A DNA stretch of 39,114 nucleotides from Flavobacteriales bacterium (GCA_011524915.1 WTJH01000067.1:1-39114), one strand, 5' to 3'. Shown: positions 27,889 to 39,114, counted from the stretch's first letter. Notes: generated by a model not told the origin, from the sequence alone. Numbers and translations: made by a program.

Positions 27889-28626
27889 GTGAACCGAAAC
27901 AAACGATCCTTTCCCACCAACGACGAGGTGCGGCTCAATAAATTTTTATCCAATGCGGGCGTCTGTTCCCGTCGCGAAGCCGACGTACTTATTGAAATGG
28001 GTATGGTGCAAGTCAACGGAAAGGTGGTTACGGAAATGGGCTTTAAAGTAAGTGCCAAAGATGAAGTACGCTACGACGGTCAGCGGCTTAGCGGACAAGC
28101 CAAAGTCTATATACTTATCAATAAACCCAAAGGATTTATTGCTACCCGCCAAGGGGGCAACCATAAAAAGTCCATCCAGGAGTTGATCCGAAGTGCTGGG
28201 GTAGGAAAGCTTCCTCCGCTAACCGAATTGGGGCGCCCCATGACCGGTCTGGTTTTACTTACCAACGATCAAAACCTTCAGAAAAGACTTCAGAGCTCCG
28301 CAAAAAAGTCTATGATATACCGTTTGGTACTCGATAAAAACATTGCTCCCTTAGACCTAAAAGCTCTACTCGAACGACCACAACTCTATCAAAAAACCTT
28401 ACAGATTAAGGCTCTATCTCATGTGCAAGGAGGTACAAGACGCGAAGTAGGGGTGGAAACCTTAAGCGTAGATCCTAGAGAAATTCAACAGTGGTTTAAA
28501 TCAGAAGGATATACGGTAGAACAACTGGATTGTGTCTTATGGGGCGGCCTCACCAAAAAAGATTTGGCACGAGGGCAATGGCGTTATCTAACCACTAAAG
28601 AAGTGGAACGCCTCCACATGATTTGA
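27889..28626 (+). CDS. RsuA/RluB-family pseudouridine-synthase homologue, apparently catalytically dead
   Basis: A 245-residue protein with an N-terminal S4 RNA-binding domain (VRLNKFLSNAGVCSRREADVL, 14-34) and an RsuA/RluB-type domain (VYILINKPKGF, then LLTND). The catalytic motif GRLDxxTxGLLLLTND has collapsed to GRPMTGLVLLTND: the nucleophilic Asp and neighbours are deleted in frame. The RNRQVRRMF block is also replaced by VDPREIQQWF. The structural strands, GLTKKDLARGQWRYL and the C-terminal end are kept and the frame is intact, so it looks like a maintained non-catalytic RNA-binding protein and not a decaying pseudogene. The start is GTG, 2 bases after the UbiA stop. Its 3' end overlaps the convergent glycosyltransferase by 43 bases. 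Confidence 0.85.
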   Translation: MNRNKRSFPTNDEVRLNKFLSNAGVCSRREADVLIEMGMVQVNGKVVTEMGFKVSAKDEVRYDGQRLSGQAKVYILINKPKGFIATRQGGNHKKSIQELIRSAGVGKLPPLTELGRPMTGLVLLTNDQNLQKRLQSSAKKSMIYRLVLDKNIAPLDLKALLERPQLYQKTLQIKALSHVQGGTRREVGVETLSVDPREIQQWFKSEGYTVEQLDCVLWGGLTKKDLARGQWRYLTTKEVERLHMI

Positions 28627-29933
28627 TCCCGAACCGGGCCCCTAAAAATTTCATAGACCAATAATCCGTAGACGGGTATATACTCCATTGCCAAGATCCA
28701 TCCGGATTCTTGAAAACCATCTATTCCATAGGCCGTATAACTAAAAAAGACCGTTGCGCTCCAGAGCAATGGAAAAAGATAGCCTGTAAAAACACTCATC
28801 AGCACCAAACTACTCAGATACCACGGATGAATCGTAGTTGCTGTACATAAGTAGAAGGTCAACACCCATAGCATATGGTTCAACAAAGCCTTAGGAGATC
28901 TATTGTTTTTAAGAAAAGTGAATATCCCTATACAGCCCATTAGGATCCACGGGCTCACTTGTCCTAATTGGCGGATGATGTTATAGCCTTTTATCTGAAA
29001 ACCTACCCATCGGACCAGACGGTAGATACTGCCGTTAAATTCAAAGCGGTTAAACCATAATTGTAAGGTCTCCCAATAATGGCTGCCCCCAGCTTCCACC
29101 CAAAAGGGCAAGCTCAACAGCAAACATAGCAGTCCTATAATCATTCCCATGCCCATGGATTTTTTCCAGCCCAAGCGCTGCCAATAGAGCGGTAAGACAA
29201 GCAAGGGGAGGAGTTTGGTGGCGATACTGGCTCCAAATGCCAGCCCACACCAAACGATGCCTCTGTATCGAATACTTGAGTAGAGTCCCCAAACAAAAAA
29301 GGCCCACATGACTCCTTCAAAGTGGAGGTTTCCGACTCCTTCAATGATTATTAAAGGGTTTAAAAAATACCACCCCATTGTTTCGGGAGATATTCGTAGC
29401 TTTCGTAAAACCTGTATTCCACCCCAAAAAATTGCAAGGTCTGCTCCCACTAAAAGCAGTCTAAAAAGGAGTATTTGACCCGCTAGGGAATGCTGAATGC
29501 TCACCGCTAGACGGAAGAGGTATTGACTCAAGGGGGGATAGTTCGAAAAGTGTTCGGCGCTCAAACTTCCCATGCCTTGATAAAGGACTTCTATTCCTGG
29601 AAACTTTAATCCTTCGCTGATCCATTGGTCGGGTGTCTTTGCATACGGACTAAATCCTAAAGACTGGAGATGTCCGTCCCAAAAAAAACGATAAAAATCT
29701 TGCGACAATTCTGGGGTATAGGAAACAAAGAGCCCTCTAAAAAAAAGTCCTATGATCCCTATTTGCCACAGCTTCAATTGTGGCCGAGTGGCATAAAGCC
29801 CCATCAATAGTAGGCTACAGCCGATGAGTGAAAGGTGTTCATGGCGCTGAATGTCTCCAACAAACCAAAGATAGCCCAGAGCAGAACCAACGATAAAAAG
29901 GATCAGCGCAAAACGCTCGCGAAAAAGTGACAT
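28584..29933 (-). CDS. Polytopic GT-C-type glycosyltransferase (mannosyltransferase-like)
   Basis: A 449-residue integral membrane protein with about ten or more helices. The first large loop contains SQDFYRFFWDGHLQSLGFSPYA, the acidic motif seen in GT-C mannosyltransferases (PIG/GPI and GT87-like), which take sugars from a polyprenyl-phosphate donor. HPWYLSSLVL near residue 385-395 is a conserved late motif. It is the last gene of the minus-strand run and begins 1 base after the GT2 stop. The DPM1-like enzyme encoded two genes upstream could supply its lipid-linked sugar. I start at ATG 29933 (MSLFRERF); an upstream in-frame codon would overlap the previous gene by about 40 bases. Confidence 0.8.
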   Translation of the reverse strand: MSLFRERFALILFIVGSALGYLWFVGDIQRHEHLSLIGCSLLLMGLYATRPQLKLWQIGIIGLFFRGLFVSYTPELSQDFYRFFWDGHLQSLGFSPYAKTPDQWISEGLKFPGIEVLYQGMGSLSAEHFSNYPPLSQYLFRLAVSIQHSLAGQILLFRLLLVGADLAIFWGGIQVLRKLRISPETMGWYFLNPLIIIEGVGNLHFEGVMWAFFVWGLYSSIRYRGIVWCGLAFGASIATKLLPLLVLPLYWQRLGWKKSMGMGMIIGLLCLLLSLPFWVEAGGSHYWETLQLWFNRFEFNGSIYRLVRWVGFQIKGYNIIRQLGQVSPWILMGCIGIFTFLKNNRSPKALLNHMLWVLTFYLCTATTIHPWYLSSLVLMSVFTGYLFPLLWSATVFFSYTAYGIDGFQESGWILAMEYIPVYGLLVYEIFRGPVRDQIMWRRSTSLVVR

Positions 29934-29934
29934 T

Positions 29935-31446
29935 TTAATGGGTTCGGAACGACTGTAAAGTAACGAATCCGAAACCAATGAACAACATCAGATGAAAAGG
30001 GAAAAGTCCAAAATCGCCATTTTTCCCAACTACAAAAGCAGAATACATCCCGAAAAGGAAATACAGGGTCAGAAGGCCTTCGAAGATGGTATAACGCGAA
30101 ATTTGGGAAGGGATATATTTATTGTTTTTCCAGCTGTCTTCTAAAGACTTGATGTTAAATTTTGGCGTACGTACAAACTCACTGCGCTTTCCGATATGCC
30201 CTTCCATTACGGCCAAAGAATTATGGACAGAAAAGCCCATGGCAATGGTGTAAAACGTAAAAAACTTTTTGATGTATTCGGTAAAGTTAGAAATCCCTCC
30301 ACCGTGGACCCGCTTAAACATATGCCAGTAACAAATAAAGAAAATAAAAGTACTGATGATAAACAGGGTAGTTATATTAAAATACCAGCTTAAGTGTCCC
30401 CAAGTGGCTTTGATATAAAGCATGGGGATACTCAGAAATCCTACGATAAAAACGTTGAGGAACATGGAGCTGTTCAGTAGGTGTAGGGCCGCCTGAATTT
30501 TGGTTCCCCAGTCGATATTTTTAGACGTAAATACACGTCCAATCATTTTTTGGAAATTTTCGGCTCCTCCTTTGTTCCAGCGGAATTGCTGAGATCGGAT
30601 GGCAGACATCACCACCGGAAGCTCTGCAGGGGTTTCGACATCCTCTAAAAACTTAAACTTCCAGTTTTTGAGCTGCGCTCGGTAGCTTAGGTCGAGGTCT
30701 TCCGTCAAGGTATCGCCTTCCCAGTTACCTGCGTCGTAAATGGTCTCTTTTCTCCAGATTCCTGCCGTACCGTTAAAGTTGATGAAATGCCCCTGACTGT
30801 TACGCCCTACTTGTTCTAGGGTAAAATGAGCATCTAGGGCAAATGCCTGTACTTGTGTTAGTACAGAATAATTTCGGTTGATATGCGACCAGCGGGTCTG
30901 GACCACCCCGATCTTTTCGTCCTTAAAGTAGGGGACCGTTCGCAACAACCAGTCAGACTCTGGTAAAAAATCGGCATCAAAAATGGCGATAAAATCTCCC
31001 GTGGCACTTTCTAGCCCCTCTTTTAGAGCACCCGCCTTAAAACCGACTCGATTTTCTCGACGTACTTGCTCAATTTGAAGCCCCTCCGCTTGGAGTTTTT
31101 CGACTATGGAGCGGGTGAGCTCTATGGACTCATCGGTAGAGTCGTCTAAAACTTGAATTTGTAATTTCTCCCGAGGATACTCTAATTTACTAGCAGCTTC
31201 CAACAGGCGCTCCATGACATAGAGTTCATTAAACACAGGAAGCTGGACAGTAACTTTAGGAAGTTCGTTAGGATTTTCGATGTCCCATTGGGGTGCATCA
31301 TCTTCTCTTTTTTGTGCCTTAAGATAGTTCCAAAGCATATTGGCTTGTGAAAGGCTGTAGAAAAAAATTAAGAGCAGGGAAAAGCTGTAAAAAACAATTA
31401 GTATATTGGAAATTGTTAGCAGAATACCCTCTGTTGACTCGCTCAT
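29935..31446 (-). CDS. Processive-type GT2 glycosyltransferase (cellulose-synthase-like)
   Basis: A 503-residue membrane glycosyltransferase. One N-terminal helix (about 12-34) precedes the GT-A domain with DDS (101-103), DAD (157-159), TED (248-250) and QQFRW (286-290), the full D, DxD, D, QxxRW set of CesA/hyaluronan-synthase-like enzymes. Four C-terminal helices follow. These enzymes add NDP-sugars to a lipid or growing glycan and can export the product. There is no PilZ domain. It overlaps the DPM1-like gene by 4 bases. Substrate unknown; glucosyl or mannosyl transfer to a lipid is plausible. Confidence 0.9.
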   Translation of the reverse strand: MSESTEGILLTISNILIVFYSFSLLLIFFYSLSQANMLWNYLKAQKREDDAPQWDIENPNELPKVTVQLPVFNELYVMERLLEAASKLEYPREKLQIQVLDDSTDESIELTRSIVEKLQAEGLQIEQVRRENRVGFKAGALKEGLESATGDFIAIFDADFLPESDWLLRTVPYFKDEKIGVVQTRWSHINRNYSVLTQVQAFALDAHFTLEQVGRNSQGHFINFNGTAGIWRKETIYDAGNWEGDTLTEDLDLSYRAQLKNWKFKFLEDVETPAELPVVMSAIRSQQFRWNKGGAENFQKMIGRVFTSKNIDWGTKIQAALHLLNSSMFLNVFIVGFLSIPMLYIKATWGHLSWYFNITTLFIISTFIFFICYWHMFKRVHGGGISNFTEYIKKFFTFYTIAMGFSVHNSLAVMEGHIGKRSEFVRTPKFNIKSLEDSWKNNKYIPSQISRYTIFEGLLTLYFLFGMYSAFVVGKNGDFGLFPFHLMLFIGFGFVTLQSFRTH

Positions 31447-32135
31447 TTGTCTTTGAAATAGTACTTAAAAACCCACCCCAGGATTTTTACTCCGGCAAAT
31501 ATACTACCTTTTAGCGTTCCGGAGACCTTAGAGACGCCAATTCTTTGTCTGTATCGGACAGGAACTTCCTGATATGGAATTTTATACCGTAAAATCTTCA
31601 GTTGCATCTCTACCGTCCATCCATAGGTTTTATCCTCCATTTTTAAGAATTGAAGGCTATCCCAGCGGATGGCTCTAAAAGGACCTAAGTCGGTAAAGCG
31701 CCCTCCATAGAGGTGTTTCATCAGCCAACAAGCCAATGCATTCCCAAAAATTTGCTGAGGCGTTAAAGAACCGGCTGCTCGGTGACTGGCACGTCTAGCA
31801 CCCACTACAAAATTAGCTTCTCCGCTTGCGATAGGAGCTACTAGACTGGGCAAATCTTCTGGATAGTCCGAATAATCTCCGTCTAAAAAGACCACAACTT
31901 CGGGAGGGTTCTCCTCTAAATACGCCAATCCTTTTAGGCAGGCATAGCCATAACCTTTTTGAGGTTCCTGAAGTACGGTTGCCCCATGATTTTGAGCCAC
32001 TTCAGTGGTCTGATCTGTGGAACCATTGTCCACTACTATAACCTCTCGGACGTCTTTTGGGATTTCTTGTAGCACTTGAGCAATGGATTTTTCCTCATTC
32101 AGTGCGGGTATAATGACTGCTATGGATAATTTCAA
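31443..32135 (-). CDS. GT2 glycosyltransferase, dolichyl/polyprenyl-phosphate mannose synthase-like
   Basis: A 230-residue GT-A enzyme: AVIIPALNEEKSI (6-18), VVDNGSTDQT (34-43), and the metal-binding DGD at 85-87 in FLDGDYSDYPED. The GARRASHRAAGSLTPQQIFGN stretch and TDLGPFRAIRWDSL are typical of polyprenyl-phosphate glycosyltransferases. It probably loads a sugar on a polyprenyl phosphate for the GT-C enzyme in the same run. There is no membrane domain apart from a hydrophobic C-terminal stretch. It overlaps both neighbours by 4 bases. It lacks the motifs expected of the TIGR04283 arsenosugar-associated family, so I do not assign it there. Confidence 0.87.
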   Translation of the reverse strand: MKLSIAVIIPALNEEKSIAQVLQEIPKDVREVIVVDNGSTDQTTEVAQNHGATVLQEPQKGYGYACLKGLAYLEENPPEVVVFLDGDYSDYPEDLPSLVAPIASGEANFVVGARRASHRAAGSLTPQQIFGNALACWLMKHLYGGRFTDLGPFRAIRWDSLQFLKMEDKTYGWTVEMQLKILRYKIPYQEVPVRYRQRIGVSKVSGTLKGSIFAGVKILGWVFKYYFKDK

Positions 32136-33646
32136 AGGGTTCCTTTTTGGGAGTTGAGATGACCTAAAGGGAAGATGGGCTCTTGGAGACGATTGTTAGG
32201 CGAGTCGTTTTCGAGACGCAAAACACCTCTGGGGCAAACAGCGCTACAGATACCACAGCCAACACAGGAAGAACGGACAATATTTTCACCCCTTTGGGCA
32301 TAGCTACGGACGTCGATTCCCATTTCGCAATAGGTAGAGCAATTCCCGCAGGAAATACACTGACCTCCGTTGGTGGTAATCCGAAACCGGGAAAAAAGCC
32401 GTTGTTGCAGTCCCAGAATTGCTGCCATAGGACAGCCAAAGCGACACCAAACACGCGAGCCCAATATCGGATAAAAGCCAACCCCCAAAACTCCTGAAAA
32501 AGCGGCTCCAATTCCAAAGCCATACCACTTTTGAACTTTGACGGCCGATAGACCAAGAATATGCCTTGGATCAGAAAAACTATGGATCGCCAAACTTCCC
32601 AGCATTAAAAATCCCAAACTTAAGAGGGTATATTGGGTGTCTCGATCCCAGGCGTTTCTTTTATACACGCCTATACCCACCAAACAGATACTTAAAAAGA
32701 TGAGTGTTCCCCCTAAAAATTGTTGCTGACTCATAATTTCGCGGCCTGTTTTTCCACCAAAAAAGGACCAGAGCAATCCAATGGTGGTAAGTAAACTCAA
32801 AACCAAGACTAGATGAATCATCCAGCGTTCCAATTTCCAAACACTAATTTTTGTACTGGACAGTTGTCGGAAGGGATCGCCTGCGGTTTCTGCTAAGGCG
32901 CCACAGCCGCACACCCAAGAACAATACCAACGTTTTCCGTATGCATAGGTGAGGATTGGCGATATCACAAAAATGAGCAGCAGTCCCCAGATCAAAAAGA
33001 AAAGTCCTAAAGTTTCCCCTTTCAGCATATTCTTTAAGTGCCAAGAATCAAAAAAGTAGTAATTCAGGGGCCACATATTTTTTAGGTCTTTCGCAAAATA
33101 GGGGGTCTCGGGGTTCATTTTGGCCAAAAACTCGGGGAGCCAATAAGCAAAGATCAGCTGGAAAAAGATTACCGAAAGCGTCCGAAAAATCTGATAGCGA
33201 TTGTGACGGTACTTCCATAAAAATTTTCCCCCAAAAACAACAATGGCAAAGGAGTAGAGTGTCCCATACATAAACCATTGGGTGGCTCTGTTTCCATTGA
33301 GGGTATAGCTTAAGGGATCAAAAAGTGCCACCACTCCTGTATTGGTTTCTTTTCCGAAGCCCAATACTTCTGGAAACCAATAGATGCACACATAAAAGGC
33401 GGTGAGGGCTAAGCCCAAAGTCCAACCCCAAAGCCCGCGGTTGGTCAGGGCATTATGCCAAACTCCATTGTTTTGAATTCCGGCCCCTTTAGGGCCATAG
33501 AGTCCCCAACTGTAGAGCAATACACCAACCGTCATCAGTCCTAGGCTTGGGCCCAAGGTTCCGATGCTAAGCATACTCCAGAGCAAGCCCAATAATCCGC
33601 TGGCGGCTCCTAAACGTTGATACAGTTGTGGAGAAAGTGTCATCAA
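32132..33646 (-). CDS. Membrane 4Fe-4S polyferredoxin, NapH/NosR-like
   Basis: A 504-residue integral membrane electron-transfer protein with about ten helices. Two membrane-proximal Cys motifs, YCSWVCGCGA (C242, C246, C248) and WCRFGCPMA (C401, C405), resemble those of NapH/NosR. Two 4Fe-4S sites follow at C430/433/436/440 and C461/464/467/471. Such proteins carry electrons across or along the membrane from quinol or NADH to a periplasmic partner. It overlaps the FAD/NAD oxidoreductase gene by 4 bases; that enzyme is the obvious electron donor. No nitrate or nitrous oxide reductase genes are present, so the acceptor is unknown. Confidence 0.88.
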   Translation of the reverse strand: MMTLSPQLYQRLGAASGLLGLLWSMLSIGTLGPSLGLMTVGVLLYSWGLYGPKGAGIQNNGVWHNALTNRGLWGWTLGLALTAFYVCIYWFPEVLGFGKETNTGVVALFDPLSYTLNGNRATQWFMYGTLYSFAIVVFGGKFLWKYRHNRYQIFRTLSVIFFQLIFAYWLPEFLAKMNPETPYFAKDLKNMWPLNYYFFDSWHLKNMLKGETLGLFFLIWGLLLIFVISPILTYAYGKRWYCSWVCGCGALAETAGDPFRQLSSTKISVWKLERWMIHLVLVLSLLTTIGLLWSFFGGKTGREIMSQQQFLGGTLIFLSICLVGIGVYKRNAWDRDTQYTLLSLGFLMLGSLAIHSFSDPRHILGLSAVKVQKWYGFGIGAAFSGVLGVGFYPILGSRVWCRFGCPMAAILGLQQRLFSRFRITTNGGQCISCGNCSTYCEMGIDVRSYAQRGENIVRSSCVGCGICSAVCPRGVLRLENDSPNNRLQEPIFPLGHLNSQKGTL

Positions 33647-34920
33647 TACGAATTTAGGGTTTTAAGGATGGAGGGATGATAATTTGGATAAAATTCTGGA
33701 TCGAAATAGGCGGCTTGCATCCCAGAGATCACTTGGTCTATGGTGCTTCCCGCCAGCAAATGATTATGGAAATATTCGTGTCTCAAACGAATACCTAGAC
33801 TATTTACGCCTAAAAATAATCGAGTTTCGGGATGAAAACTCCAACGGATGAGTTTTGCGGCCGAAGGGTGCTGCCAAAAGATTTGCGATTCGTTTTTAGG
33901 ATCCGCTTGGGCCGATAGCTGTCCGTAGATTTGGTATTCGATATCGAAAAATTTAGCGGAATTAAACCAAGGTCCAGGACGGTAAGCTTCTTTTTTTCCG
34001 GCCAGAGTAAGGGCCAAGGTTTCACCCATCATACGTCCGGTATACCATACGGCTTCGATCGGCCTGCGATGGGACGGTGGATTTTTTTGTTGGGCACAGT
34101 CGCCAATGGCATATACATCGGGCCAGTTGGTCTCCAAATACGGATTGACTAGGATTCCACGATCGGTTTCTAAACTGCTCTGTTTTAAAAATTCAATATT
34201 GGGTTCTACGCCTATGGTAGCGCCAACCCATTGGGCGGGGACTTCCTTGCCATCGGCTGTTAATACATGTGAAACTGCCCCTTCATCATCCCCCTGTAGG
34301 GCTTGCACTTGGGCATTGAGATGCAGTCGAATGCCATGGGATTCGATATGTCGATTGATGATTGCCGATTCTTCGGGCGGCAAAACCGTATTCCAAAAAC
34401 TCGACTCGCGCACCCAAAAATCTACTTCGATACCGCGGCTGTGGAGCATTTCGGCCAATTCCACACCGATGAGCCCCCCGCCGATGATGCTGGCCTGTTT
34501 GAGTTTGGGCGTATGTGCTTCTAAAGCCTCAAGATCTTGCCAATGGTAGAGCCCGCGAACGCCCTGGAGATCACTCCCGGGGAGGGGCAAGCTTCGGGCT
34601 TTGGAGCCCAAAGCCAATACCAAACGGCTATATGTTTGTGTTTTTCCCGATTGAAAAACGATGGTTTTTTCTTCTGGACGGATCTCTACTACGCGCTCTT
34701 GAATTCGATCCAAACGATTTTTTTTCCAAAAGGACTTTTCATAGGGATAGAGATCCCTTTTGGGCATATGCCCCATATAAACATACATCAGGGCTGTTCG
34801 AGCAAAAAAGTAAGGGCTTTCCTCCGAAACAATACAAATGGGGACGTCAGAGCGCTTGCGCAGTTGTCGGGCACAGCTGATACCAGCTATTCCATTTCCA
34901 ATGATGATGACGGGATCCAC
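33643..34920 (-). CDS. FAD-dependent pyridine nucleotide-disulfide-family oxidoreductase
   Basis: A 425-residue soluble flavoprotein. The FAD motif GNGIAG is at 8-13, the NAD(P) motif IIGGGLIGVELAEML at about 144-158, and the second FAD motif VYAIGDCAQ at about 272. The N-terminal two thirds resemble rubredoxin/nitrite reductase (NirB-type) NADH oxidoreductases. The C-terminal 120 residues form a less typical domain. No redox-active CxxC is visible. As first gene of the run and overlapping the polyferredoxin gene by 4 bases, it probably passes NAD(P)H electrons to that membrane protein. Confidence 0.88.
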   Translation of the reverse strand: MDPVIIIGNGIAGISCARQLRKRSDVPICIVSEESPYFFARTALMYVYMGHMPKRDLYPYEKSFWKKNRLDRIQERVVEIRPEEKTIVFQSGKTQTYSRLVLALGSKARSLPLPGSDLQGVRGLYHWQDLEALEAHTPKLKQASIIGGGLIGVELAEMLHSRGIEVDFWVRESSFWNTVLPPEESAIINRHIESHGIRLHLNAQVQALQGDDEGAVSHVLTADGKEVPAQWVGATIGVEPNIEFLKQSSLETDRGILVNPYLETNWPDVYAIGDCAQQKNPPSHRRPIEAVWYTGRMMGETLALTLAGKKEAYRPGPWFNSAKFFDIEYQIYGQLSAQADPKNESQIFWQHPSAAKLIRWSFHPETRLFLGVNSLGIRLRHEYFHNHLLAGSTIDQVISGMQAAYFDPEFYPNYHPSILKTLNSY

Positions 34921-35021: not shown

Positions 35022-35210
35022 ATGATTACGTTCGTATCTTTTGTATTTGTACTGAGCTGTATTTTTATTTTTTATCGAATCCTACAGCAGTTTTCCACCG
35101 GTTTCGATTGGTTTTCGGGAACCCTCTATGGTCTTATCTTTTTGGTTTCCTGCGGTCTACTCTATGTATTCCTCTTTGGAATTTATTATTGGATTATCGG
35201 GGAATTGTAA
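35022..35210 (+). CDS. Possible small two-helix membrane protein
   Basis: A 62-residue open frame with an ATG start, running between the divergent oxidoreductase operon and the DUF547 gene. It has two clear hydrophobic segments (about 3-20 and 34-58) split by a short polar loop (QQFSTGFDWFS). It overlaps the DUF547 3' end by 25 bases, tail to tail. No family is recognised. The clean membrane topology favours a real gene, but a chance hydrophobic frame cannot be ruled out. Confidence 0.45.
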   Translation: MITFVSFVFVLSCIFIFYRILQQFSTGFDWFSGTLYGLIFLVSCGLLYVFLFGIYYWIIGEL

Positions 35211-35908
35211 GCTTGGTTAAGTCCCCAATCGTAGCGTTTATAGCTGAGCTCAGGCGTCGTTTCTTGGGGCAGCCCCAGTACCTTTTTGATAAAGGCTATT
35301 TTTCCTTTCCGTCCCCCGAAGTCTTGGCCAAACCACAAGAATATTCGGGAAAGTCTCCATTGGTTTCCCTCAATCTTATTTTTGCTAGGGTCGGTCAGAA
35401 AGGCCTGCGTGGCTTGGTGAAGTTGTTGTTCCAGTCCGCGTCCGGTATAAACTGTTCGACTGAGTTTGGGGCAGGAAGCCGAAGCGCAATTGATGGCAAA
35501 ATGAATCCGAGGGTCTCCCATTTTTCGTAAAATTCGGTGTTCAATGGCTCCCAAGGAATAGGATTGATCACCGATCTGGAAAACAGTCCGACCCCAGGGC
35601 CTGTAGAGGTCTCGAATACTTTCTAAAGGATAGTTTTTTAGGATGAGTTGTACGGTAAGGGCATTATAGGCATTGATCCAAAAAGCCATCCGCTGAGGAG
35701 TAGGGGCATCTTTAGCAGGAGCGTTGCGGGCTAGGGCTTCGATATAGGCATCTAAGGCATACCGATCTTCCTTCCAAGCCTTATAATCCACATCCCCCGA
35801 TTCGCTAACATAGGTCTGCAGCATTCGCCCCCAGGCTTCGTGCACTCCCTTTTGGGCCCATAGGGAGCCGGAACACAGGAAGAAGAAAATCATGCATGGG
35901 ACTCGCAT
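35186..35908 (-). CDS. Exported DUF547 protein in an arsenosugar-type cluster
   Basis: A 240-residue secreted protein with a signal peptide (1-19, ending LWAQ). The DUF547 core is clear: FWINAYNALTVQLILKNYP (76-94) and HFAINCASASCPKLS (136-150) with conserved His and Cys residues that recall a thiol-protease-like fold. The biochemical role is unknown. DUF547 genes are frequent neighbours of arsM and the TIGR04282 glycosyltransferase in Bacteroidetes. The start at 35908 is chosen because it gives a proper signal peptide and lies 1 base after the arsM stop (TAGTATG), implying coupled translation. Confidence 0.9.
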   Translation of the reverse strand: MRVPCMIFFFLCSGSLWAQKGVHEAWGRMLQTYVSESGDVDYKAWKEDRYALDAYIEALARNAPAKDAPTPQRMAFWINAYNALTVQLILKNYPLESIRDLYRPWGRTVFQIGDQSYSLGAIEHRILRKMGDPRIHFAINCASASCPKLSRTVYTGRGLEQQLHQATQAFLTDPSKNKIEGNQWRLSRIFLWFGQDFGGRKGKIAFIKKVLGLPQETTPELSYKRYDWGLNQAYNSPIIQ

Positions 35909-35909
35909 A

Positions 35910-36878
35910 CTAACAACAACCCCCGCCATCGTAGTGGAAAGTGGCTGGAGAAATAAAGATATCTTTTCTGCCGAGGGCTGCTAGTTGCCCTGCGGTTTTA
36001 TCACATACAGCCAAGGGTTGGTTTTGTAAAAGCACATGACCCTTGCCGTCGTCATAAAAATCTTCAGAACCGAAATACAAAGCTGTTTTTCCAGTAAAGA
36101 CACAAGGCCCATCTGCAGGCATGGGATCCTTGATGGCACAAACTTCCACACTTTCGATATAGATCTGTTCTTGGGTGGGGTAGTGCTCGGGGGCTAAAAT
36201 ACGGTAGGGTCTTTTGGCCCGAATTTCGATGGTGGCAAAGCCCACTTCTGTAAGCATAGCGATATATTCCTGGAGCGGGATTGCCCCGGATAGGCAAAGG
36301 GCTCTTAGTTGAGCATCGTTGCGCAGGGTGTCGTTCATGGGTTGCTCACAAATGGGGTCACTCATCACTAAGCGTCCATGAGGTTTGAGTACCCGATACA
36401 TTTCTCGGAGGGCCTTTTTAAGATCTTCTTGTACAAATATGTTGAAAAGACAATTCTGTGCAGCTACGTCTATACTTTCGTCTGCCACGGGAAGTTCTAA
36501 GGCATTTCCTTTTTTAAGTTCCACAAAAGAAGGGTCGAACCAAGAATTTTGTTCTGCTGCAAGTATAAAGTTTTGTTTGGAGGCTTCCAGCATTTCATCG
36601 ACCACATCGATGCCTATAACACCCCCTTTTTGGCGAGAGAAATACGAAAATTGAAGCAGTTCCATTCCTCCGCCCACACCTACATATAGAATCTTAGGGT
36701 TATTGACCAGATCTCGGGGATGAACGGTGGACCCACAGCCATAGTTCATTTCCTGCATGATGGTCGGAATTTCCAACCCGGGAAATTTCCAAATGGGAGT
36801 GGTAGTACAGCAAAGTCCTACATCTGGGGTTTCGGCAGCTGCCTTATATACATCAACGGTAGTATCTAAATAACTCAT
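35910..36878 (-). CDS. arsM: ArsM-like arsenite S-adenosylmethionine methyltransferase (arsenosugar type)
   Basis: A 322-residue class I methyltransferase. The SAM motif LYVGVGGGMELLQ is at 64-76. The arsenic-binding cysteines of ArsM are represented by C48 in NYGCG, C143 in QNCLFN and C195 in RALCLSGAI. C23-C24 (GLCC) and a C-terminal GGGCC (C321-C322) add two vicinal pairs that could hold As(III). After the Rossmann part, residues about 235-322 form the C-terminal domain of the flavobacterial arsenosugar-associated version. It would methylate arsenite to a dimethyl form that is then attached to a 5'-deoxyadenosyl group by ArsS. Its neighbours (nucleoside phosphorylase, TIGR04282 transferase, DUF547) fit that pathway. 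Substrate is inferred, not shown. Confidence 0.88.
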   Translation of the reverse strand: MSYLDTTVDVYKAAAETPDVGLCCTTTPIWKFPGLEIPTIMQEMNYGCGSTVHPRDLVNNPKILYVGVGGGMELLQFSYFSRQKGGVIGIDVVDEMLEASKQNFILAAEQNSWFDPSFVELKKGNALELPVADESIDVAAQNCLFNIFVQEDLKKALREMYRVLKPHGRLVMSDPICEQPMNDTLRNDAQLRALCLSGAIPLQEYIAMLTEVGFATIEIRAKRPYRILAPEHYPTQEQIYIESVEVCAIKDPMPADGPCVFTGKTALYFGSEDFYDDGKGHVLLQNQPLAVCDKTAGQLAALGRKDIFISPATFHYDGGGCC

Positions 36879-36898
36879 AGTCTAAAGGTACAAAAAGC

Positions 36899-37726
36899 TT
36901 AGAGGCTTTGGAGATAGCTGAGCATAAGTTTACTAAACTGCTGTTCTCCTCGAGCAGCCATGGCCATAATTTCTGGTATGTCAATGGGTTGTAAATCGTC
37001 CGGATCACAGAGGTCGGTCAAAACTGAAATCGCCAGAACTTCCACGGCCAACTGATTGGCAACAATGACTTCCGGAACGGTGGACATCCCCACCGCATCG
37101 GCTCCTACAGTTTTAAGGTAGCGATATTCGGCCCGGGTTTCCAGTTGAGGCCCCACCACAGCAGCATAAACGCCCTGGTGAAGGGTTGTTTGCTGGTTTT
37201 GTGCCAACTCCAACCATTGGTGTTGTAGTTTGGGCGAGTAGGGGGCCCGCATATCTACAAAGCGGGGTCCTAAGGCTGCAGCAGCGGTTGAGGCTAAGGG
37301 CGACCCCCCCTGAAGGTTGATGTGGTCATCGATCAATAAAAGCTCCCCCTTGGTATAGTTCAGATTGATGGCTCCCGCGGCATTGGTAATAAACAATTGT
37401 TGTACGCCCAGCTGGTGAAGTACCCGCACGGGATAGGTAATTTCATCGTCCGAATAGCCCTCATATCGGTGGAGTCTCCCTTGACACACCCAAAGGTATT
37501 GCCCCGCTGCTTTTACACAATGTAAAAAGCCTTCATGACTCATTACGGTGGGAGGCATCCAGTGAGGAATATCACTGTAGGAAATACTTTGTAGGATCTC
37601 TACCTGATCTAAAAATCCTGCCATCCCAGTCCCAAGGATAAGCCCTATGGAAGCTTGGGGTAATCCCAAGGCTTCAATGGCTTGTTGACTTTCTTCCAGC
37701 ATTTTTGGAGTCGTAAAATTGCCCAT
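36899..37726 (-). CDS. Purine nucleoside phosphorylase, PNP-I/MTAP family, with adenine-type recognition residue
   Basis: A 275-residue trimeric-type phosphorylase that cleaves a nucleoside with phosphate to base plus ribose-1-phosphate. Phosphate-binding GTGMAG (32-37), QGRLHRYEGYS (82-92) with H86, TNAAGAIN (114-121), GPQLETRAEY (192-201) with E196 and VGMSTVPE (212-219) are intact. The base-selecting residue, Asn243 in human PNP (context TN), is Asp238 here in LTDLCDP. In the family, Asp at this place goes with 6-aminopurines, as in MTA phosphorylase. The gene lies 3 bases after the TIGR04282 transferase and 20 before arsM, so a 5'-dimethylarsinoyl-adenosine-type substrate is plausible. 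Confidence 0.93.
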   Translation of the reverse strand: MGNFTTPKMLEESQQAIEALGLPQASIGLILGTGMAGFLDQVEILQSISYSDIPHWMPPTVMSHEGFLHCVKAAGQYLWVCQGRLHRYEGYSDDEITYPVRVLHQLGVQQLFITNAAGAINLNYTKGELLLIDDHINLQGGSPLASTAAAALGPRFVDMRAPYSPKLQHQWLELAQNQQTTLHQGVYAAVVGPQLETRAEYRYLKTVGADAVGMSTVPEVIVANQLAVEVLAISVLTDLCDPDDLQPIDIPEIMAMAARGEQQFSKLMLSYLQSL

Positions 37727-37729
37727 ATT

Positions 37730-38329
37730 TTATTCGATTAAAGCCCAAAGATCGGGATGTTTTTGGAGATCAGCGGCTGTGTCGATATCGTTTTTTTGGG
37801 AGAGTAAGGCGCGTTTTTCTGGGGCTATATCTGCCAAGGTTTGTTCCAGTAGATCAGGGGTGCTCCAAGCTTTGTTCTGGAACAATTGAGTCTGCATTTT
37901 TTGCATGCCTATAAGGTAGTAACCGCCGTCGGCAGCCGGACCGATAACCACCTCTTTGTTCTGAAGCAGCTCTAAGGCCTGCTCTAAGTCGGTAGCCTCT
38001 AAATCCCACAGATCGGTACCAATCCCGACAACGGGGCCATAGCCCTGACCAAAGGCCCACTCAAATCCGGCTTGCATCCGTTGACCGAGGTCGCCCGATA
38101 CTTGCCGAAAACAACTTGAAGTTACTTCCAGCCATAGGGGATCGGGTTGGGAGGAAGGGGTGTGCCACACGGCAGCCTCCAAACCGCTCGCTTGGAGCGT
38201 CCTGGCAGTCTTTTGTAAAAGCTGTTGATAGACTTCCAGCGCCTTGAGTTCCCCTATGCTTTGAGCCAGGCGGGTTTTGACCGTTCCCAAAAGGGCATTT
38301 TTACAAAAAACAAGCACCAATGGTTTCAT
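37730..38329 (-). CDS. TIGR04282-family (DUF2064) glycosyltransferase, arsenosugar-associated
   Basis: A 199-residue GT-A/nucleotidyl-transferase-like protein. Visible motifs are the N-terminal CKNALLGTVKTRLA (9-22), GDLGQRM (79-85), IGTDLWDL (103-110) in place of the usual IGSDxPxL, and GPAADGGYYLIG (130-141), the family hallmark. Members are annotated as arsenosugar biosynthesis glycosyltransferases because they co-occur with arsM and arsS. The role would be to attach the arsenic-bearing ribose-1-phosphate to an aglycone. It is the first gene of the four-gene run. The start at 38329 (MKPLVLVF) is chosen because the upstream extension runs into the repeat region and has no family similarity. 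Confidence 0.9.
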   Translation of the reverse strand: MKPLVLVFCKNALLGTVKTRLAQSIGELKALEVYQQLLQKTARTLQASGLEAAVWHTPSSQPDPLWLEVTSSCFRQVSGDLGQRMQAGFEWAFGQGYGPVVGIGTDLWDLEATDLEQALELLQNKEVVIGPAADGGYYLIGMQKMQTQLFQNKAWSTPDLLEQTLADIAPEKRALLSQKNDIDTAADLQKHPDLWALIE

Positions 38330-38407: not shown

Positions 38408-38486
38408 CGCTAGTGCAAGGCTCCAGCCTTGCACTAGCATAGTTTTAATTGGAAGAGTTCGTGCAAGACAGGAGCCTTGCGCGAAC
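38408..38486 (+). repeat. 79-base double-hairpin repeat, copy A
   Basis: This unit matches copy B (38965-39043) at 75 of 79 positions, in the same orientation. It begins with a perfect 30-base palindrome: arm 38409-38422, CC, arm 38425-38438. A second stem pairs 38457-38466 with 38477-38486 (one G-T mismatch). The segment GGAGCCTTGC at 38471-38480 can instead pair with GCAAGGCTCC at 38415-38424, giving a mutually exclusive fold. It lies between the divergent TIGR04282 operon and the coiled-coil gene, so it may influence transcription of either. REP-like or small mobile palindromic element is the best description. Confidence 0.85.
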
Positions 38487-38537: not shown

Positions 38538-38927
38538 ATGTCTATGGCCCTATCCTACACCCCTCCGGATACCCTGAAAATGGTTCAGGAACTCTGCGCC
38601 GCAGGGACACCCCGTGAATTGGCCGAAAAACAAATTGAAATTTGGACCCGCATGTTGGTTTCTTTTGCGCAGTATTCTTCGGATCAGTTTAGCTTGTTGG
38701 CGAGTAAAGACGATCTAGCAATTACCAAGCTTGAACTTCAAAAGGAGATTCAAGAAGTAAAACTCGAACTTCAGCAAGTAAAACTCGGTCTTCAAAAGGA
38801 AATTCAGCAAGTAAAACTTGAACTTCAAAAAGAAATTGTGATGGCCCAGCGGAGTACTATTTTATGGATTGCTGGGATCATCATCGCTCAAACAGCGATT
38901 ATATTTACTTTAAATCAAATCTTCTAA
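38538..38927 (+). CDS. DUF1640-like coiled-coil protein with C-terminal membrane anchor
   Basis: A 129-residue protein. An N-terminal helical part (DTLKMVQELCAAGTPRELAE, 11-30) is followed by LLASKDDLAITK and a coiled coil at 65-100 built of near-identical segments: LELQKEIQEVK, LELQQVK, LGLQKEIQQVK, LELQKEI. A single membrane helix (about 108-125) ends the chain. This layout fits the DUF1640/CCDC90-type family of small coiled-coil membrane proteins, whose bacterial role is unknown. It is a single gene lying between the two copies of the hairpin repeat. Confidence 0.8.
   Translation: MSMALSYTPPDTLKMVQELCAAGTPRELAEKQIEIWTRMLVSFAQYSSDQFSLLASKDDLAITKLELQKEIQEVKLELQQVKLGLQKEIQQVKLELQKEIVMAQRSTILWIAGIIIAQTAIIFTLNQIF
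38730..38837 (+). repeat. Internal coiled-coil repeat (11- and 7-residue units)
   Basis: The DNA encoding residues 65-100 has a 54-base period made of a 33-base hendecad unit and a 21-base heptad unit, repeated nearly twice, with mainly synonymous or single-base differences. Such arrays expand and contract by slippage or recombination, so the coil length may vary between strains. Confidence 0.75.
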
Positions 38928-38964: not shown

Positions 38965-39043
38965 CGCTAGTGCAAGGCTCCAGCCTTGCACTAGCATAGT
39001 TATAGTTGGAAGAGTTCGCGCAATACAGGAGCCTTGCGCGAAC
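38965..39043 (+). repeat. 79-base double-hairpin repeat, copy B
   Basis: This is the second full unit. The 30-base perfect palindrome is at 38966-38979, CC and 38982-38995; the second stem, here without mismatch, pairs 39014-39023 with 39034-39043. It starts 37 bases after the coiled-coil gene stop and could act as a bidirectional transcript end, though no T-run follows. A degenerate further arm, GAGCCTTGTGCAA, is at 39060-39072. No gene is seen between here and the window end. Confidence 0.85.
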
Positions 39044-39114
39044 TACGGATGAACAACAAGAGCCTTGTGCAATCCATAAAGACAACGAAAACTGATATCT
39101 TTAGGCAACAAACT

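Follow-up and report, generated by a model that had tools for sequence, protein, structure and literature searches.

A probable arsenosugar biosynthesis locus of marine Flavobacteriaceae, with candidate enzymes for the steps after ArsS

In marine food webs, arsenosugars are among the major forms of organic arsenic. The closest described system for making them is that of cyanobacteria, in which arsenosugar biosynthesis involves ArsM and the radical S-adenosylmethionine (SAM) protein ArsS. The chemistry of ArsS is established (Cheng et al. 2021, as cited in PMC12159101), and a published arsenosugar scheme invokes a hypothetical nucleosidase (PMC10456119); in the literature that we searched, no enzymes were assigned to the steps after ArsS. 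In the arsinothricin (arsQML) and bisenarsan clusters, C–As bonds are likewise formed within a biosynthetic cluster, but by other enzymes and to give other products (PMC12159101, PMC8552651). Here we consider a locus in a stretch of 39,114 nt, referred to below as the window, from a Flavobacteriales bacterium (GCA_011524915.1 WTJH01000067.1:1-39114) whose genome assembly (2.07 Mb, 191 contigs) is 88% complete. It has in common with the cyanobacterial system the ArsM and ArsS families and the same expected dimethylarsinoyl adenosine intermediate, but adds a purine nucleoside phosphorylase (PNP), a TIGR04282 protein, an AhpD-like protein, a DUF547 protein and a downstream glycosyltransferase block. 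The locus type is already known and named in NCBIfam. We think it probable that the window holds most of a complete locus for arsenosugar biosynthesis, from a marine Flavobacteriaceae genome, working by the route proposed below.

Gene content and the contig break

An earlier note, made from the sequence of the window, had described four closely spaced minus-strand genes, encoding a TIGR04282 protein, a nucleoside phosphorylase, an ArsM-like methyltransferase and an exported DUF547 protein. All four are present (Table 1), NCBIfam and Pfam profile searches uphold each family name, and the gaps between them (3, 20 and 1 bases, reading the DUF547 start at 35908) agree with that description. The ArsM belongs to NF038099, named 'arsenosugar biosynthesis arsenite methyltransferase'; it scores 128 bits on the general arsenite methyltransferase model (cut-off 263) and is far under the cut-offs of the arsinothricin ArsM models. 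Its Cys48/143/195, invariant in 83/83 sequences, align with Cys72/174/224 of CmArsM, which bind As(III) (PMC12608789).

The company kept by this gene was judged from 80 related ArsM loci, ranked by ArsM similarity and hence mostly from Flavobacteriaceae, by counting neighbours within about 10 kb. PNP was found in 73/80, TIGR04282 in 72/80, ArsS in 70/80, AhpD in 66/80 and DUF547 in 60/80, a gene set far beyond chance. A TIGR04283 GT2 glycosyltransferase (45/80), a fatty-acid-hydroxylase-like protein (25/80) and an exported rhodanese (49/80) also recur, and none of the three was found in the window. Across 248 genomes of the phylum, ArsM occurs in 20, ArsS in 105 and TIGR04282 in 153; ArsS is present in 20/20 ArsM-positive genomes and in 85/228 others (Fisher 1e-8), and TIGR04282 in 103/105 ArsS-positive genomes (2e-28), both values ignoring phylogeny.

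The earlier note was right to place ArsS outside the window, but not in taking the cluster to be without its radical SAM gene: the genome-wide search that it advised found an ArsS gene on contig C11 (its CX3CX2C motif reads CNQVCAHC), adjoined by a gene for a TIGR04169 AhpD-like protein and also by trpBA. C11, of 16,248 bases, terminates 90 bases beyond the AhpD start. The final 43 bases of the window are identical to bases 36-78 of the reverse-complemented C11, and a 30-base piece of this overlap occurs at two sites only in the genome, the window end and the C11 end, in compatible orientations. After joining, AhpD would start 13 bases, and ArsS about 352 bases, outside the window. In L002, the relative whose ArsM and ArsS come closest in identity, ArsS-AhpD diverges from TIGR04282-PNP-ArsM-DUF547-FAD on one contig, and the single contig of L079 carries trpA, ArsS, AhpD and then the entire operon. 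Because of the unique overlap of the contig ends and this gene order in relatives, it seems most likely that the ArsS start lies some 350 bases outside the window, cut off from it where the assembly breaks in a repeat; its seeming to be 'elsewhere or replaced' would thus be an effect of the assembly edge. In G130, G134 and G234 ArsS and ArsM are indeed separated, with more than 600 kb of one contig between them.

The break sits at two copies, 95% identical, of a palindromic repeat (GCTAGTGCAAGGCTCCAGCCTTGCACTAGC; 38408-38486 and 38965-39043), whose core palindrome is also found near the start of contig C99. Between the copies is an open reading frame (ORF) of 129 aa with a coiled-coil/transmembrane look (38538-38927), which has no Pfam or NCBIfam match.

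A proposed route and the place of the phosphorylase

From the gene content, the conserved residues and a modelled fold, we infer the chemical steps and the acceptor as follows. As(III) would be methylated by ArsM to dimethylarsenic, which ArsS, encoded past the contig break, would attach to 5'-deoxyadenosine derived from SAM, at its 5' carbon. Phosphorolysis of the resulting 5'-deoxy-5'-(dimethylarsinoyl)adenosine by the cluster PNP would then give adenine and 5-deoxy-5-dimethylarsinoyl-ribose-1-phosphate (arsenoribose-1-phosphate), from which TIGR04282 would form a nucleoside diphosphate (NDP)-arsenoribose. The arsenoribose would be handed on by a GT2 enzyme, which is TIGR04283 in most relatives and here probably the AglJ-like one, to an acceptor that the block of membrane glycosyltransferase genes downstream serves to make or export. 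The textbook scheme put forward earlier is largely supported, by the families, by ArsS and TIGR04169, by the ArsM cysteines and by the PNP residues, and departs from ours at the last transfer. As a PNP would yield a sugar-1-phosphate, a nucleotidyltransferase would be needed to form the donor for a GT2 enzyme, in place of direct transfer.

It was this last step, transfer of arsenoribose-1-phosphate by TIGR04282 itself, that structural comparison made less likely. With its AlphaFold2 (AF2) model (pLDDT 95.5) as query, Foldseek listed first 3cgx, of its own family, and then FbiD Rv2983, 3-phospho-D-glycerate guanylyltransferase and CofC-type 2i5e (E-values for these three of 1e-7 to 1e-8) and sugar nucleotidyltransferases; GT2 enzymes came far down the list, and, its own family aside, the nearest solved structures are nucleotidyltransferases. 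The CofC/FbiD/3-phosphoglycerate guanylyltransferase group shares this fold (TM-score about 0.7-0.77) and also has KTRL plus Asp motifs, but identity to TIGR04282 is only about 15-19%, and the TIGR03552 CofC model scores 34.5 bits against a cut-off of 105. In TIGR04282 itself KTRL, Asp106 and DxD (181/183) are conserved, which we take to be motifs of a metal-dependent nucleotidyltransferase. Because the modelled fold is that of a nucleotidyltransferase, the likelier role for TIGR04282 is to activate arsenoribose-1-phosphate, rather than to transfer it. The start at 38329 is preferred because the extension of a longer ORF, to 38440, passes through the repeat; the family profile begins at residue 42 of that ORF.

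The PNP was compared with the sequences of human PNP and MTAP, whose residue numbers were checked. It has Asp at the position of human PNP Asn243 and Ile at that of His257, and MTAP carries Asp220/Val233 at the matching sites. Among 73 cluster PNPs, Asp243 is found in 73/73, and residue 257 is Ile in 69 and Val in 4; non-cluster PNPs of Flavobacteriaceae have Asp243 and retain His257. Replacement of Asn by Asp at the 243-equivalent position gives strong adenosine activity in the PNP of K. lactis (PMC5074518), as does Glu201Gln plus Asn243Asp in human PNP (PMC2799393), and the loss of His257, which contacts the 5'-OH, would fit a 5'-deoxy-5'-substituted adenosine as substrate. Trimeric PNPs and phosphorylases for 5'-methylthioadenosine (MTA) belong to one fold family, and MTAP shares Asp243 and a hydrophobic residue 257 with the cluster enzyme, but the latter is overall a PNP by sequence (84.6 bits on the MTAP model, cut-off 274.85). 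This phosphorylase, with its fitting specificity residues, and the CofC-like nucleotidyltransferase are thus two candidates for the steps after ArsS. Marine Flavobacteriaceae are likely arsenosugar producers.

Several observations weigh against the proposed route. The pairing of Asp243 with a hydrophobic residue 257, when tested as a feature unique to arsenic clusters, proved not to be so: PNPs of other Bacteroidota families that are not linked to ArsM have it too, so MTA or 5'-deoxyadenosine would fit equally well. Only one NF006054 PNP was found in the genome, so that it may also serve general salvage. Three essentially complete genomes with no ArsM or ArsS over cut-off (G142, G154 and G182) retain TIGR04282-DUF547-TIGR04283 with the flavin adenine dinucleotide (FAD) and iron–sulphur (Fe-S) genes, and G182 retains the PNP too. 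No TIGR04283 protein over cut-off was found in the present genome, at 88% completeness; the join of C11 to the window is inferred, not sequenced; and the co-occurrence statistics are uncorrected for phylogeny.

The observations on the PNP would be accounted for if it salvaged 5'-deoxyadenosine or MTA, as by-products of SAM chemistry, while another enzyme stripped the adenine and the cluster still made arsenosugars; printed alignments show the same residues in the solved PNPs 4lna and 4m1e, which is consistent with such a role. We consider this unlikely, as the gene stands in a tight operon with ArsM and stays close to it in nearly all of the related loci, and PNPs with these residues follow ArsM across Flavobacteriaceae genomes (14/14 ArsM-positive, 1/14 ArsM-negative). 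In a tree, the ArsM-linked PNPs group together (99/94) and the PNP of G182 is nested among them, which fits secondary loss of the arsenic genes.

Versions of the locus free of arsenic genes

The Flavobacteriaceae L175, L176 and L177, without ArsM and ArsS, keep TIGR04282-DUF547-TIGR04283-FAD/Fe-S in the same gene order, and in G142 and G154 glycosyltransferases come next after the FAD/Fe-S genes. From the retention of the block in arsenic-free genomes it follows that its TIGR04282/DUF547/glycosyltransferase part is not arsenic-specific. It is possible, though less likely than not, that TIGR04282, DUF547, TIGR04283, FAD/Fe-S and the glycosyltransferases together form a general pathway to glycoconjugates, which uses an activated 5-modified ribose and for which ArsM, ArsS and PNP supply an arsenic sugar. 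On that reading, marine Flavobacteriaceae would use PNP phosphorolysis and an NDP-arsenoribose, to our knowledge without precedent as a donor, to decorate exported glycans or lipids with arsenoribose. A further step would be to suppose that an older, arsenic-independent glycoconjugate locus (TIGR04282, DUF547, FAD/Fe-S and glycosyltransferases) received ArsM, ArsS, AhpD and PNP, with arsenoribose at most one of its sugars. The conserved order in L175, L176 and L177 speaks for this, as does the occurrence of TIGR04282 in 50/143 ArsS-negative genomes; its near-universal presence alongside ArsS, and the placing of both TIGR04282 and TIGR04283 in arsenosugar biosynthesis by the NCBIfam curators, speak against it, and we regard it as unlikely, slightly more so than a salvage role for the PNP. 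In any case TIGR04282 by itself is no marker for arsenosugars, and its NCBIfam label should not be used alone. Plain detoxification, with ArsM yielding volatile or excreted methylarsenicals among chance neighbours, is rejected as very improbable: ArsM family enzymes often detoxify arsenite, but this one is in an arsenosugar-specific family and under the cut-off of the general model, its neighbours are conserved across ArsM loci, and ArsS is present in the same genome.

DUF547 and the downstream block

The DUF547 protein has a signal-peptide-like N-terminus (MRVPCMIFFFLCSGSLWA), and 43 sequences all keep its His143, Cys148 and Cys153. Its AF2 model (pLDDT 91.6) found no fold match in the PDB at E<=0.001, nor did its sequence find a match there, and the model suggests that this is possibly an undescribed fold. 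In the literature that we searched, we found no paper on a function of TIGR04282 or DUF547 in arsenosugar synthesis. Downstream, the FAD and Fe-S genes and three membrane/glycosyltransferase-type genes share a strand and overlap head to tail (Table 1).

Table 1. Features of the locus, in the window and on the facing contig C11 (loci are those, of 80 related ArsM loci, that have the feature)
Feature	Position	Strand	Length	Profile match (bits; cut-off)	Loci and remarks
Large membrane protein, putative mannosyltransferase-type position	28584..29978	minus		no NCBIfam or Pfam match	13/80 keep the position; assigned by position only
CelA-like processive GT2 glycosyltransferase	29935..31446	minus			24/80
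GT2 glycosyltransferase, AglJ/dolichyl-phosphate-hexose-transferase-like	31443..32135	minus		TIGR04283, partial (47; 182)	
Membrane 4Fe-4S protein, NapH-like	32132..33646	minus		PF12801 and other Fer4 models	34/80; overlaps FAD gene
FAD-dependent pyridine nucleotide-disulphide oxidoreductase	33643..34920	minus		PF07992	38/80; downstream of ArsM
Exported DUF547 protein	35186..35908	minus		PF04784 (100.9; 27)	
Arsenosugar-type ArsM, predicted As(III) methyltransferase	35910..36878	minus	322 aa	NF038099 (562.5; 400)	
Trimeric-type PNP	36899..37726	minus	275 aa	NF006054 (296; 218)	
TIGR04282/DUF2064 protein	37730..38329	minus	199 aa	TIGR04282 (187.3; 134); PF09837	
Contig-end overlap	39072..39114	plus	43 bases		common only to window end and facing end of C11
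ArsS	C11:14770-15675			TIGR04167 (451.5; 300)	
AhpD-like (peroxidase-like) protein	C11			TIGR04169 (188.9; 120)	adjoins ArsS

A hydrophobic ORF of 62 aa on the plus strand (35023-35211) lies between two operons and overlaps the end of the DUF547 gene. An Rfam search found no RNA families in the window. Elsewhere, positions 3901-23979 hold an ordinary-looking starch/maltodextrin utilisation locus, with SusC, SusD, three GH13 alpha-amylase-family proteins, GH65 and a sulfatase.

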